Assembly (NCBI RefSeq): GCF_004366795.1
Contig: NZ_SORF01000004.1
Location: 62,001-126,000, forward strand
Source: Alicyclobacillus sacchari
Lineage (GTDB): Bacteria > Bacillota > Bacilli > Alicyclobacillales > Alicyclobacillaceae
Direction: 5' to 3'
DNA length: 64,000 nucleotides
The number at the start of each line of letters is the position of its first letter. The first letter of the stretch is position 1. This document shows positions 18,572-23,862 of the stretch, piece after piece. A program made the position numbers and the translations under genes. A model generated the notes under the pieces. It was not told the DNA's origin. It searched no databases and saw only the letters and a program-made list of their open reading frames with translations.

Positions 18572-19231
18572 ATGCATATCGTTAGTCTCGGCGACTCCAT
18601 CACGTATGGCGAAGGCGCATCCAGTCCAGCGCGGGCGTACCCGAGCGTGCTGACCGCACTGATGCACTCGCAACTTCCATCGCGATCGTGCTGCGATGCC
18701 ATTCTCGCAGAACCTGGTTGGACAAGTGCGGATTTGCTCGCAGCCCTCGCTGCAGCGGGCGGTCAGCCCTTGGCCAATGCCCGCGCGATCACGATTTGGA
18801 TCGGCGGAGACGATCTTGCGCAAGCCGCCTTGACCGCACTTGCGTCAGCTCGGAAATCCGTGCCCATCGCGCCACTGGTCACTCGCTACAAACATCATTT
18901 GACGGAACTTGTTCGAATTGCGCAGGCTGGCAGGGGGAAGACGGTCATCGTGTGCACACAGTACAATCCCTTTCCAAATAGCCCATTGGCAGTCGCAGCT
19001 GTCGCCACATTGAACGATGCCATCGGTTCCGTGGCGGCGGCTACCGGAGCCGCGCTCGCGCCGGTAGCCGACTGGTTTGCGGGCCGCCAACGCGAACTCA
19101 TTCGCCACTACCGAACCGGTACGCTCGCCGACGTCGGGCGGGGTCCCGCTCCGGTTCACCCAAATGACAGAGGGCATCGCGTGATAGCGGACGGGCTTTA
19201 TCGAATGTTGGCACCAATCGTTTCGCGCTGA
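18572..19231 (+). CDS. SGNH/GDSL-family hydrolase
   Basis: A 219-residue esterase-like protein without signal peptide. Block I is IVSLGDSITYGEG with the nucleophile Ser, and the C-terminal block V is PVHPNDRGHRV with the Asp/His pair. In block III the usual G-x-N-D reads IWIGGDDL, so the oxyanion-hole Asn is replaced by Asp, which may change activity. It ends 48 bp before the sigK start on the same strand. Substrate unknown. Confidence 0.85.
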   Translation: MHIVSLGDSITYGEGASSPARAYPSVLTALMHSQLPSRSCCDAILAEPGWTSADLLAALAAAGGQPLANARAITIWIGGDDLAQAALTALASARKSVPIAPLVTRYKHHLTELVRIAQAGRGKTVIVCTQYNPFPNSPLAVAAVATLNDAIGSVAAATGAALAPVADWFAGRQRELIRHYRTGTLADVGRGPAPVHPNDRGHRVIADGLYRMLAPIVSR

Positions 19232-19279
19232 CATAGGCTAGGGCGCATTGCCCTTTCCACAGTCGGAGGTGAACGCCGC

Positions 19280-19474
19280 TTGCTGTCATTCGCCTTGGCC
19301 GCTGCTCTGATGCGAGACATCGTGCTCGCCACCGGATTTGTCAATCAGTCGTTTCCACAACCGCTCAATAAGGACGATGAGCAGAAATATTTCGACTTAT
19401 GGCGCAAACACGGCGACAAACGGGCGCACGATCTGCTGGTCGAGCACAACCTGCGCCTGGTTGCACATGTCGCC
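19280..19474 (+). CDS. sigK: sigK 5' part (pro-sigma-K N-terminus, interrupted)
   Basis: The N-terminal 65 codons of the late mother-cell sigma factor. The start is TTG at 19280, set by GGAGGTGA seven bases upstream. The hydrophobic pro-sequence (LSFALAAALMRDIVLATGF) is followed by SFPQPLNKDDEQKYFDL and VEHNLRLVAHVA, matching pro-SigK before region 2. At CCAA (19473-19476) similarity stops and the frame runs on into unrelated sequence until a stop at 20054. Unrearranged DNA therefore cannot make sigma-K. Joining at CCAA to 21971-21974 gives LVAHVAKKFDTSG, in frame. Confidence 0.93.
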
Positions 19475-19497
19475 AACGTGTCGTCGACACAGTCACC
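19452..19497. other. Left attachment site of the sigK element (attL)
   Basis: The core CCAA lies at 19473-19476. To its left is sigK sequence; to its right is the element half-site, whose arm reads GTGTCGTCGACACAGTCAC (19478-19496). This arm is the mirror of the arm at the other end, with 12 bp perfect then 5 of the next 7 positions matching. Confidence 0.8.
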
Positions 19498-19505
19498 GCT
19501 TTCCG

Positions 19506-21059
19506 CTACAGCTCGATCCGCGGGTGAACCGTCAGACGCACCGATTCGCCTCTCGCATCCATGTCAACGCGATCGATCACAGCCTCGATCCACGCCCGCC
19601 GCTCTTCGAACTCCTCGGCGCTGGCCGCTAGCAACCATGCCTCCACCCGCTCGCGATCATCCTTTCCTTTTGCCGCCTCAACACGGTGCGCGATGCAACG
19701 CCTGCACACTTGCTCGCGCAACGCGTACCAACGGGCCTGTGTCTCGCGCTTGCGAGCCATGTACGTATTGGCATCGAGATCGCCATACGCATAGAGGGTT
19801 GCAAGGCGAACCTTGGCCGCTTGCAGCGTCGTCAATTGCGCCGCCATTTGCCGCAATTCTTCCGTTACACCGCCATGTACACCAGAACGGGATAAGCTGT
19901 CCCACACGTCATTCCAAACTTGACTTGTCACGATCCGATGAACCAGTTCACGCCAGACGAGTTGCTCGACAGCCGCAGCCGGCACGCGTTTACATCGGTA
20001 GGGGCAACGCGGCGCCTGCCTCCCGGTTTCCGGCGGCCGGCGATACCACCGCATAGCATCCCCCTCACTCTTCATAGTTGCCGAGCTATACCACGCCTGG
20101 CGACAAACGGAGCAGACGAGACACCCTGCAAGCAGATGACGTTTGGCTTTGCCCGTGCGCCCGCGCGCCCGCGCCTGCCGGCGAACATTCACGGCCTCGG
20201 CGAGACTGGGTTCGACGATGGGGGGTACTGGGATGCAGATCCAATCACTTGGCTGCCGCCAGCCCACCACGACGCGCCGACCCGAGCGCTTGATACCAGG
20301 GACTCTGCGCGCAATCCGCAAGGCTTTGCGCGTGGATCGTCGGTTGAAGTACCAGGTACCTGTGTACATGGGGTTGGCAAGAATGTGCCCAACGGTTGCA
20401 TGTGACCAGGTCGCAGATAATCGCGTCTTCGTGGGCACGCCAAGTGCATCCAAGCGTTTGGCAATCGCGCGAAGACTGAGTTGTTCGTAGGCGTACCACC
20501 GATAAACCATACGCACGACGGCTGCCTCGCTCTCGACGATCACAAGCTTGCCGCTTTCATACCTGTAACCATAGGGATCGATACCGGTCGGCATGTACTG
20601 CCCACCTTTGGCGGCCCGCAGTTTGCCAGAGAGGGTCCGGCGGCGAATCTGCCTAAGTTCATATTCCGCAATACTGGAGATGATATGAAATAAGAGCACC
20701 GCCTCGTCCGACTGATCCCAATTGGGGACGTCGACAAAATGCAATTCCACGCCACATTGTTGCAATTCGCGAACAATGATGGCCTTGTCTGCAACGTTTC
20801 GCGAAAGCCGATCGGGATGTTTGATGACGACTCTAGCAATGGCGCCGCGTCTAGCGTCGTCCAGCAATGCCAACAGCGCCGGTCGTTCCATGTCTTCCCC
20901 GGAAGCCCCGGCTTCTTCGTACACCCGAATATCCGTTTGTGAGACGCCCAGAGCGCGTGCATAATGGATACACTGTTCGCGCTGTACCGCGAGACTATGC
21001 CCCTCCGCAGCCTGTACCCCTGTTGACACGCGCGTGTAGACGGCCGTCAGCATCGGCAT
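19506..21059 (-). CDS. Large serine recombinase (SpoIVCA-like sigK excisionase)
   Basis: About 517 residues. The N-terminal resolvase domain has the nucleophile S12 in YTRVSTGVQAAEGHS, with conserved Arg in RERPALLALL-type and HPDRLSRNV motifs. Next comes the Recombinase domain (PYGYRYESGKL, NPMYTGTWYFNRRS), then a zinc ribbon (CLVCSVC and CPYRC) and a C-terminal helical region. The frame is open to 21200 but serine recombinases begin a few residues before YxRVS, so ATG 21059 or 21074 is preferred. The stop lies only 30 bp from the attL core. It should catalyse excision of the element in the mother cell, by analogy with SpoIVCA. Confidence 0.92.
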   Translation of the reverse strand: MPMLTAVYTRVSTGVQAAEGHSLAVQREQCIHYARALGVSQTDIRVYEEAGASGEDMERPALLALLDDARRGAIARVVIKHPDRLSRNVADKAIIVRELQQCGVELHFVDVPNWDQSDEAVLLFHIISSIAEYELRQIRRRTLSGKLRAAKGGQYMPTGIDPYGYRYESGKLVIVESEAAVVRMVYRWYAYEQLSLRAIAKRLDALGVPTKTRLSATWSHATVGHILANPMYTGTWYFNRRSTRKALRIARRVPGIKRSGRRVVVGWRQPSDWICIPVPPIVEPSLAEAVNVRRQARARGRTGKAKRHLLAGCLVCSVCRQAWYSSATMKSEGDAMRWYRRPPETGRQAPRCPYRCKRVPAAAVEQLVWRELVHRIVTSQVWNDVWDSLSRSGVHGGVTEELRQMAAQLTTLQAAKVRLATLYAYGDLDANTYMARKRETQARWYALREQVCRRCIAHRVEAAKGKDDRERVEAWLLAASAEEFEERRAWIEAVIDRVDMDARGESVRLTVHPRIEL

Positions 21060-21192
21060 CCCCCGCTTTCTCATGACTATCGACACGCCCTTGCGAACTT
21101 TGCCAGATGAGCTTAGAGAAGACCTGTTTTGCTTGTGCTGGGGAGATTGGCGAAGCCGGAGTCTTCCATTCCACGTAAAACAGCCGATCCAT
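20995..21192 (-). CDS. Possible short leader ORF before the recombinase
   Basis: A 65-codon frame starting MDRLFYVEWKTPASPISPAQ. Its ATG at 21192 has AAGGGGG seven bases upstream, a better ribosome binding site than any recombinase start. It overlaps the recombinase start by about 65 bp in another frame, so its last third is only shadow sequence. It may couple translation of the recombinase, or be spurious. Confidence 0.25.
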   Translation of the reverse strand: MDRLFYVEWKTPASPISPAQAKQVFSKLIWQSSQGRVDSHEKAGDADADGRLHARVNRGTGCGGA

Positions 21193-21210: not shown

Positions 21211-21218
21211 GTTGTATG
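21211..21218 (-). promoter_or_regulatory. Sigma-E-like -10 element before the recombinase
   Basis: Minus-strand CATACAAC about 20 bp upstream of the first ribosome binding site resembles the mother-cell sigma-E -10 (CATACAAT). The matching -35 is weak. In B. subtilis spoIVCA is transcribed by sigma-E, so the site makes biological sense, but it is a short match. Confidence 0.35.
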
Positions 21219-21308
21219 CGGGAGAGGAGATGTCCTAACACGAATCGGCTACTGGAGGGACGGCTGCCGCATGAAGGAGATCATCAGTTGCGATGAAGTG
21301 GCGCAGGT

Positions 21309-21926
21309 CTAGTTGGTGTCATCGTGTTTGGAACCCTTGCTACGCCGGTGTTCCCAGATGCGAAACCATACAAAAAGCACGATGAGCACGACAACGACGA
21401 GAATCAACAGCACGACGTGGTGTTTGAAAAACGGCCAGTACTTTGTGACAAACTCTCCAATATACCGCCCGGCAATGATGAATACGCCCGACCAGACAAC
21501 AGCGGCAATGGTATTGAACACAAAAAACAACCAAGGCTTCATACGATTGATGCCAGCGAGGTATGGAATGAGGATGCGAACGCCAGCGATAAACTTTGCG
21601 ATGAATACCACCCATAACTCGTAGCGCTGAAACCGTTGATTTGCTGCATCCAGCTTGGCCGGTGTAATGCCAATGAATTTGCCAAAGTAAAGGACGATAG
21701 GACGCCCGAGATACCACCCTATCATATAGGCAATGGCCGATCCAATGAGGTTGCCAAGGCATCCCGCGAGCCACACTGGAACAAGGTGAAACACGCCTTT
21801 CGACCACTCGATGCCGGAAAGCGTGAGGGTTGTTTCAGCAGGGAATGGAAAGCCAATGGCTTCAACGAGGATGATGAGAAACACACCGAAATATCCGTAG
21901 TGATGAATGATCTCCTGAAAGTGCAC
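21309..21926 (-). CDS. DedA-family (VTT domain) membrane protein
   Basis: A 205-residue integral membrane protein. It has the DedA marks: VEAIGFPFPAETTL near the N-terminus, the re-entrant segments and FIAKFIAGVRILIPYLAG with its conserved Arg, then C-terminal membrane helices and a basic tail. Members translocate phospholipids or undecaprenyl phosphate. The GTG at 21926 has GGGAGG upstream and is preferred over an ATG at 21959 or 21995, which lie in or beyond the attachment site. Its promoter must lie at or beyond attR, so excision would change its upstream DNA. Confidence 0.88.
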   Translation of the reverse strand: MHFQEIIHHYGYFGVFLIILVEAIGFPFPAETTLTLSGIEWSKGVFHLVPVWLAGCLGNLIGSAIAYMIGWYLGRPIVLYFGKFIGITPAKLDAANQRFQRYELWVVFIAKFIAGVRILIPYLAGINRMKPWLFFVFNTIAAVVWSGVFIIAGRYIGEFVTKYWPFFKHHVVLLILVVVVLIVLFVWFRIWEHRRSKGSKHDDTN

Positions 21927-21952
21927 AGAGTCGCCTCCCTGGGCTGCTGCAA

Positions 21953-21993
21953 GTGACATTGTCGACGACACCAAGAAGTTTGATACGTCCGGC
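21953..21993. other. Right attachment site of the sigK element (attR)
   Basis: The core CCAA lies at 21971-21974. The element side (21953 onward) reads, on the minus strand, GTGTCGTCGACAATGTCAC, mirroring the left-end arm. The other side is sigK coding sequence (AAG AAG TTT GAT). Right and left element ends joined at CCAA give a palindromic attP with 19-bp arms around CAAC. Confidence 0.8.
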
Positions 21994-22509
21994 ATTGATC
22001 AGGACGATTTGATTTCGATTGGCACGGTCGGCCTGATCAAAGCGGTGGACACATACCAGCCTGCAAAAGGCACAAAATTTGCGACGTACGCCGCACGATG
22101 CATTCAAAATGAGATTCTGATGCAATTGCGGGCGCAACGCAAAACCCGCAAGGACGTCTCACTGTACAGCCCCATCGGCACAGACAAAGAAGGTAACGAA
22201 ATCACCATCTCCGATATTCTGTTTTCTGAGAGCGATTCCACAGAGGACGAGGTCAGTCGGAGAATGGAGATCGACGGCATGAAGAAGTTGCTCGATGTTT
22301 TGGACGAACGCGAGCGTCGCGTGATCGAACTGCGCTTCGGGCTCGTGGACGGCCACGAATGGACGCAAAACGAAGTGGCCGATTTACTCGAAATATCCCG
22401 TTCCTACGTATCCCGGTTGGAGAAGCGAGCGTTACTGAAAATGTTCCACCAGTCATACGCAGGCCAAGAGCGCAAACGAGCCTACAGGCATTCGCGCGCA
22501 CAGCCGTGA
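21973..22509 (+). CDS. sigK: sigK 3' part (sigma-K regions 2-4)
   Basis: Encodes KKFDTSGIDQDDLISIGTVG and the rest of sigma-K: region 2 (GTKFATYAARCIQNEILMQL), KKDVSLYSPIGTDKEGNEI-type sequence (here RKDVSL) and region 4 with LDERERRVIELRFGL and the HTH EVADLLEISRSYVSRLEKRAL. It has no start codon or ribosome binding site of its own; TTG 22009 is not preceded by one. It needs fusion with 19280-19474 to be expressed. The ending KMFHQSYA matches the C-terminus of SigK. Confidence 0.93.
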   Translation, partial: KKFDTSGIDQDDLISIGTVGLIKAVDTYQPAKGTKFATYAARCIQNEILMQLRAQRKTRKDVSLYSPIGTDKEGNEITISDILFSESDSTEDEVSRRMEIDGMKKLLDVLDERERRVIELRFGLVDGHEWTQNEVADLLEISRSYVSRLEKRALLKMFHQSYAGQERKRAYRHSRAQP

Positions 22510-22526
22510 TCCAATCGCCGTCCGGA

Positions 22527-23762
22527 TCAATGTCCGGACGGCCAGGTTCCGAGAGTGACTTCGACCGTCATCCTTTTTCCGTCGCGAAGCACCGCAAGCG
22601 TTATCTTCTGGCCGGGATTGTCCTCGTTGATATACGCGGTCAACTGTTCGATGCTGTTCACCGGCTTGCCGTCGATGCCCACGATGATGTCGCCATCACC
22701 TTTGAGAATGGTGTAGGGATCAGCCGTCTGATTGGCATTGTTCAACTTGTTCGCGTTGCTGTCGCCGCGCAAGCCCGCTTTCGCGGCAGGGCCGTCCTTT
22801 GTCGTCTCGGTCACGTAAACGCCAGACGCTACAGGCAGGTGCATGGCCTCCTGCATTAGATTGTCGATATCCATCCCCTCGATACCAAGCCATGCATGTG
22901 CGATGGGTTGACCAGACAGCAGCTTGGGTTCCAGCTGGACGAGCCTGTCAATTGGTATCGCAAAGCCGATCCCAATCGAACCTTCAATTGGACTCTCGAT
23001 CAAGGTGTTGATACCGACGACTTGGCCCGCGGCGTTGAGCAACGGCCCACCCGAATTGCCGGGGTTGAGCGGCGCGTCCGTCTGAATCATGCCGTTCATG
23101 ACGTGGCCGCTCGACTCGGACATGGATCGATTCAAGCCGCTGACGATCCCGGAGCTGACGCTGGAGGTGAGCTCAAACGGGTTGCCAATGGCAATGACCA
23201 AGCTGCCAGGCTGCAGCGATTTCACGGATCCGAGCGGCAATGGCTGCACGGAAGCCGGAGCAGGAATGCGGACAATGGCGAGATCGTCCAGCGTGTCGGC
23301 ATTGAGCACGCGTCCGATGTACTGGCGATTGCCACTCGACACCTCGACCGTCTTGGCACTTCCCACAACATGCGCATTTGTCGCGATATCGCCGTTATCG
23401 TCGATGAGAAAACCGGTGCCAATATCCTCTTCGGCGCCGCTGTCCGTCGCTGATTTGCCCCCTGATACCGCCGTAATCGTAAAAATGCTGTTTTTTACAC
23501 GGTTGTAGATATCCGTGACCAAGGTGGTGTTGTCCACACCCGGAATCGCGGTAGCCGAACTGCTCGTTCCCGAACCGTTGCTTGTGACTGAAGGTACGTA
23601 TTCCACCGTCGTCTGGTGCCCGGAGCGGCTGATGGCTGCACCCGTCCAAATGCCTAACACATAGAACACCGCGAGACCGGCGACGATACTCGGCAACCAC
23701 ACCGCCCGCCTGCGCCGGCCGTCGCTCGGCCAATCGTCAAACTCATCGAAACGCCGCCCCAT
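22527..23762 (-). CDS. HtrA-type membrane-anchored serine protease
   Basis: A 411-residue envelope protease for misfolded proteins. After a cytoplasmic Arg-rich segment there is one membrane helix at about residues 22-45. The trypsin-like domain has H131 (ATNAHVV), D160 (TLDDLAIV) and S237 (NPGNSGGP). One PDZ domain follows (GVYVTETTKDGPAAKAGLRG, GDIIVGIDGKPVNS) with a short Asn-rich insert. Start ATG 23762 follows GGGGGAGG. The gene converges with sigK and is unlinked to the dynamin operon apart from strand. Confidence 0.93.
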   Translation of the reverse strand: MGRRFDEFDDWPSDGRRRRAVWLPSIVAGLAVFYVLGIWTGAAISRSGHQTTVEYVPSVTSNGSGTSSSATAIPGVDNTTLVTDIYNRVKNSIFTITAVSGGKSATDSGAEEDIGTGFLIDDNGDIATNAHVVGSAKTVEVSSGNRQYIGRVLNADTLDDLAIVRIPAPASVQPLPLGSVKSLQPGSLVIAIGNPFELTSSVSSGIVSGLNRSMSESSGHVMNGMIQTDAPLNPGNSGGPLLNAAGQVVGINTLIESPIEGSIGIGFAIPIDRLVQLEPKLLSGQPIAHAWLGIEGMDIDNLMQEAMHLPVASGVYVTETTKDGPAAKAGLRGDSNANKLNNANQTADPYTILKGDGDIIVGIDGKPVNSIEQLTAYINEDNPGQKITLAVLRDGKRMTVEVTLGTWPSGH

Positions 23763-23862
23763 CGTGCCTCCCCCTTCCACAACCACATGTCGTTGCCTTC
23801 ATTCTAACCATCCACCTTCCCATGCACAAACCAACGGAAGGTTGCGGCCAGCAAGACGATTC

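Follow-up and report, generated by a model that had tools for sequence, protein, structure and literature searches.

This locus raises the question of what excision of the element that interrupts sigK in Alicyclobacillus does to the gene that the element carries: besides rebuilding sigK, does it switch that gene, dedA, off or on? The window, which is the whole 64-kb stretch of DNA analyzed (G000:C4:62001-126000), contains a 2,498-bp element that splits sigK after the codons for "VAHVA". The 5' part of sigK (19280..19476, plus strand) has a TTG start and ends with ...LRLVAHVA at the att core, and the 3' part (21973..22509, plus strand) runs from KKFDTSG... to the stop codon. Joining the flanks at AA leaves the composite frame intact and gives one open SigK frame, the frame restoration expected of a skin-like element. 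Reading the minus strand from the right end, the order is dedA, a predicted promoter, a small open reading frame (ORF), and a gene for a large serine recombinase. Upstream of the 5' part of sigK, the -10-like element CATAGGCTA is invariant in 14 species. Within the sigK promoter region (19195-19245), GCACC is followed after ~16 nt by ACATAGGCTAGG, which is invariant in 14 of 14 species, and the arrangement resembles the sigma-K/E consensus. An HtrA-like protease gene (22527..23786, minus strand) is convergent with sigK. A GC-rich hairpin lacking a U-run lies between the two at 22518-22541, and similar hairpins are present in several relatives.

The ends of the element were compared across the 14 species in which it is resolved. 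attL spans 19455..19500, with the core AA at 19475-19476, and attR spans 21950..21995, with the core AA at 21973-21974. In this genome both ends of the element have CCAA (19473-19476 at attL), and when 14 of 14 species are compared the common crossover core comes down to the dinucleotide AA. Serine recombinases make a two-base crossover, which this core fits. When attL and attR are brought together on an excised circle, they form an attP that is an inverted repeat in 14 of 14 species, with 12-17 of 22 bases matching. A short core flanked by repeat arms is again what is found in skin-like elements.

Of 15 Alicyclobacillus genomes, 14 have the arrangement sigK-recombinase-dedA in the same order and at the same codon, and their elements measure 2.44-2.64 kb. 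In most other genera of the family sigK is uninterrupted; in three genomes (G015, G020, and G021) it is split at other places. Structure and conservation confirm a minimal sigK-intervening (skin-like) element that is fixed in the genus; from its sequence we infer how it is regulated, as described below. A phage collection was searched for an origin of the recombinase-dedA pair; all recombinase and DedA matches in it were distant, and a search of viral contigs yielded four distant recombinases. Because all of these phage and viral matches are distant, a phage origin of the pair was rejected. Recombinase relatives outside the genus are ~30% identical. No paper joining sigK, an intervening element, and DedA, nor one on the Alicyclobacillus element, was found in the incomplete share of the literature that was searched.

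Host codons at the insertion site appear to be held in place by the recombinase. Synonymous conservation of the 15 codons around the junction is 0.72 versus 0.53 in element-bearing species (permutation p = 1e-4), and this excess is absent in ten relatives of other genera with an uninterrupted sigK. The extra conservation of these codons only where the element is present indicates that the att-arm host codons are constrained by recombinase recognition, as retained attB arms. Extra synonymous-site constraint in sigK is mainly confined to these arms.

Selection on the arms bears on whether the element still excises. If programmed excision had been lost, sigK function would have to come from another source, or sporulation would have to be rare; an intact attB pattern, searched in all assemblies of the genus, was found in none, as would then be expected. 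We nevertheless regard such a loss as very improbable, since the composite frame is open, the recombinase and the att arms are under selection, and these genomes hold no uninterrupted close SigK copy elsewhere (other sigma matches are ~50-55% identical). The fifteenth genome, G009, also argues against it. Both the recombinase and dedA are missing from its assembly, and two sigK contigs (C39 and C44, at the end of L167 and the start of L073, respectively) end exactly at the site, in the register of an empty attB. This state could be a true, natural loss of the element, or it could be an assembly branch arising from mixed excised and integrated DNA.

The gene at the left end (19506..21053, minus strand; 515 aa, aligned across 14 species) encodes a large serine recombinase with PF00239 Resolvase and PF07508 Recombinase domains. 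It reads toward and off the left end of the element, and a recombinase encoded at the element end is a further skin-like feature. The initial annotation held that DedA was the sole cargo and its gene the only one besides the recombinase, which needs correction: a 65-codon ORF (20995..21192, minus strand; MDRLFYVEWK...) overlaps the recombinase start. A counterpart of ~40-70 codons is present in 14 of 14 elements, overlapping or abutting the recombinase start, and its start region carries a (D/Q)RP(I/V)xV-like motif in all 14, for example DRPIFV or QRPIRV. The frame in G004 was matched by eye from the alignment, the script having given another frame, and in G004 and G008 no canonical start directly follows the ribosome-binding-like G-run. 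Values of omega for the small ORF are 0.35-0.68 in most valid pairs (pairs with L010 were disregarded), which points to a fast-evolving gene under only moderate coding constraint. No family match for it was found in the profile libraries searched, NCBIfam among them. Its size, position, and predicted control resemble those of CD1234, the 72-aa excision factor of the Clostridium difficile skin element, which is under sigma-E and SpoIIID (PMC5025042), and of GirX, the 42-aa protein of the gin element (PMC5595907). By this analogy, the small ORF is a candidate recombination directionality (excision) factor.

The gene at the right end was correctly recognized in the initial annotation as a DedA-family gene on the minus strand, read away from attR within a sigK-interrupting element. 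Its VTT domain (PF09335) scores 67.5 bits against a Pfam cut-off of 33.9, which places it in the family. The interval 21309-21974, given as the gene, is its open frame; dedA most likely starts at a GTG at 21926 and thus occupies 21309..21926 (minus strand, 205 aa). It has its own ribosome binding site, AGGGAGG (21934..21940, minus strand), which had been put about 45 bp inside attR and which we place ~33-39 bp inside the core. The best NCBIfam match is UptA (NF052604) at 97.9 bits; the equivalog cut-off of 250 is not reached, and the protein was not assigned as UptA. It shares the VTT domain with the UptA/DedA undecaprenyl phosphate transporters.

DedA copies across the genus are 60-94% identical to the copy in this genome. 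In pairs comparable between the two genes, omega is 0.03-0.13 for dedA and 0.10-0.19 for the recombinase, so purifying selection acts more strongly on dedA than on the recombinase. In the DedA tree, the copies from the 14 elements group as a single clade (97/100), next to free-standing DedA proteins of other Alicyclobacillaceae, a position that makes the cargo most likely host-derived. Among 14 free-standing DedA loci that were fetched, a related neighboring protein was present at six; the three neighbors tested were PAP2 proteins, whose best NCBIfam match was undecaprenyl-diphosphate phosphatase, below its cut-off. Because such PAP2/phosphatase-like genes often adjoin free-standing family members, the undecaprenyl phosphate link made in the initial annotation is reasonable, and a role for the element DedA in undecaprenyl phosphate recycling is a favored possibility. 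At G000:C8:120757-122107, the genome under study also has a PAP2 undecaprenyl-pyrophosphate-phosphatase-like gene paired divergently with a gene for a diverged DedA (37% identity); this pair may be the ancestral dedA locus.

Between dedA and the small ORF lies a predicted promoter for the recombinase operon (21215..21237, minus strand), composed of a SpoIIID-like box, TAGGACATCT, and a CATA -10-like element (GCATAC). The spacing between the TAGGACA box and the GCATA element upstream of the small ORF is invariant in the alignment of 14 species. Across 15 genomes there are 14 occurrences of the motif TAGGACAWYY-N8-GCATA, 12 at this locus, versus 0 for a reversed-pattern control, and the motif is nearly unique within each genome; the L009 and L016 elements depart from the exact SpoIIID-like box. 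A brief look at the extra sites, in G008 and G004, found no convincing downstream gene. The SpoIIID box consensus is WWRRACARNY, and the motif resembles such a box combined with a sigma-E/K -10 element, as judged by the B. subtilis consensus; a clear -35 is absent. A SpoIIID gene is encoded. The small ORF and recombinase are thus predicted to be under sigma-E/SpoIIID control. The B. subtilis gene spoIVCA is almost completely SpoIIID-dependent (PMC517825). While the element is integrated, dedA sits upstream of this SpoIIID-box/sigma-E-like promoter.

What, then, could drive the integrated dedA? The initial annotation placed its promoter in or beyond the attachment site, within sigK in antisense, and a promoter between 21926 and 21960 was named there as the finding that would speak against this. 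No sigma-70-type match lies between 21926 and 21974, and a sigma-70 scan of the region gave 2 promoter-like sites versus 2.8 expected, none of them upstream of dedA. A scan of antisense sigK-C in 14 species with a sigma-A weight matrix (an approximate one, based on the B. subtilis consensus), compared with synonymous shuffles, found no positionally conserved site. The proposal thus stands insofar as no promoter is seen between the ribosome binding site and attR, and lacks support insofar as antisense sigK-C shows no conserved sigma-A promoter that could drive dedA and be cut off by excision.

These scans also bear on the possibility that dedA serves as a housekeeping gene in vegetative cells, with a weak antisense promoter in sigK-C, or read-through from beyond it, providing expression that excision would simply bring to an end in the terminal mother cell. 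A cell-wide role is plausible, given that the element copy is the sole DedA >40% identical to itself in 12 of 14 element-bearing genomes. The mean sigma-A score upstream of dedA is slightly raised (7.3 versus 6.3 in the synonymous-shuffle null, with species that are not independent), and constraint is weakly elevated in sigK-C codons 25-32 (p = 0.008, uncorrected for the roughly nine bins). However, the best antisense promoter matches are weak, and both their sequence and their place vary by species. Read-through from the HtrA-like gene was rejected as a general source of dedA transcripts because direct adjacency was not found at all loci, and in four species a second element is interposed upstream. 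We consider vegetative expression of this kind rather unlikely.

The second element concerns G004, G007, G008, and G012 (L069-L072), which form one clade. It is 4-5 kb long and lies at about SigK residue 140, so that sigK is in three pieces; it carries a different cargo and a separate serine recombinase, 533-544 aa long in the two cases read. Both of the elements examined resemble the first element in having a recombinase gene that reads off one end, with the cargo starting near the other.

The geometry of the first element and its circle supports the earlier claim that excision alters the DNA upstream of dedA. Its sign is probably the reverse of the one proposed: rather than severing dedA from a promoter, excision would bring one to it. 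Gene order in the sequence gives a circle that reads promoter, small ORF, recombinase, attP, and dedA; since the recombinase gene points out of the left end, circularization puts dedA downstream of the element promoter. The gap that then separates the recombinase stop from the dedA start is 63-88 nt in 10 species and 21 nt in one. A conserved predicted promoter and this circle order, combined with an integrated dedA that appears promoter-less, make it more plausible that excision switches dedA on.

We propose the following model. In the mother cell, sigma-E with SpoIIID would transcribe the small ORF and recombinase from the internal promoter of the element. The recombinase, perhaps aided by the small protein, would excise the element at the AA crossover and rebuild sigK. 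Excision would circularize the element, with attP linking the recombinase gene to a dedA of the same orientation, so that dedA, with no detectable promoter when integrated, would become the last gene of a mother-cell operon. During cortex synthesis, DedA would then be expected to carry undecaprenyl phosphate back across the membrane. Excision in vivo, read-through on the circle, and the DedA substrate are steps that we infer from sequence, and we give the model as a whole, with repair of sigK and addition of dedA to a mother-cell operon as joint outcomes of excision, a probability of about one half.

Two features of the circle junction may modify this outcome. The attP transcript is predicted to fold into a strong hairpin, with no U-tract after it, which might lower read-through into dedA. 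In G002, G011, and G013, the recombinase frame is still open at the element boundary and, when integrated, ends three codons past attL; on the circle it continues in frame into DedA to give an ORF of 731-733 codons. This fusion ORF may be incidental, and it was rejected as a conserved design because only 3 of 14 species have it.

That restriction to three species, together with the few orders possible in a two-gene element, would also fit dedA being passive cargo, useful at any level, whose expression state is irrelevant and whose arrangement on the circle is accidental. Such indifference is improbable: dedA has a low omega, and 14 species have kept its ribosome binding site, its orientation, and the short gap on the circle. 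Beyond the switch-on model, we hold only tentatively, as a possibility, the fuller claim that the element has been domesticated for development: a single recombination event would both rebuild sigK and assemble a new mother-cell operon, with a host-derived transporter of the undecaprenyl-phosphate type placed behind the recombinase, in some species as a circle-only fusion ORF.

The element shares with B. subtilis skin and C. difficile skinCd an interrupted sigK, a large serine recombinase, a short core, and frame-restoring excision, and sigma-E/SpoIIID-type control is predicted for it in this comparison. Unlike these prophage-sized elements, it is 2.5 kb long, lies near codon 65, and has no phage genes, and it is fixed through the genus with a conserved host-derived transporter. 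The gin element in Bacillus cereus gerE is likewise a non-phage intervening element with a serine recombinase and a tiny accessory protein, but it is 28.6 kb long with 31 genes and variable content (PMC5595907), whereas the Alicyclobacillus element has one recombinase, one small ORF, and one cargo gene. Phage MMB025, from the same genus, also inserts in sigK and has a serine integrase; it differs in being a 105-kb infectious prophage with the core TCTC (PMC13141910). The recombinase is 30% identical to the MMB025 integrase over 74% of the query, and no match of dedA to MMB025 was among the matches listed.

Expression from a circle has precedents. In Tn916, genes that are promoter-less when integrated are transcribed across the joined circle ends, as found experimentally (PMC11658703), and promoter switching in ICEKp1 follows the same logic (PMC13023037). 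The gene order of such circle expression is present here, and dedA is predicted to lack a promoter when integrated. Circle transcription in Tn916 and ICEKp1 serves conjugation or integrase expression; here it would serve development in a terminal cell.

Skin-like elements are usually regarded as prophage remnants with dispensable and variable contents. This 2.5-kb element is kept at one codon throughout the genus, and its cargo is more constrained than its recombinase. A possible reason for its persistence is that it holds the only close member of the DedA subfamily in the genome of most species. If excision does switch on the cargo, the DNA rearrangement would have a positive regulatory function in sporulation. 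At this size, the complete unit could readily be moved into B. subtilis.

Small sigK elements were also observed near SigK codon 110 at L091, L095, L097, L098, and L100-L103, mostly in Clostridia. Several of the Clostridial elements contain a distant relative of the Alicyclobacillus recombinase, and some are only ~2 kb, with room for little else; dedA had no match in those checked. Elsewhere in G000, serine recombinase genes occur as two pairs with identical match scores (C2:132787-133917 with 140194-141324, and C6:79440-80483 with 82245-83288), which suggests recent duplications.
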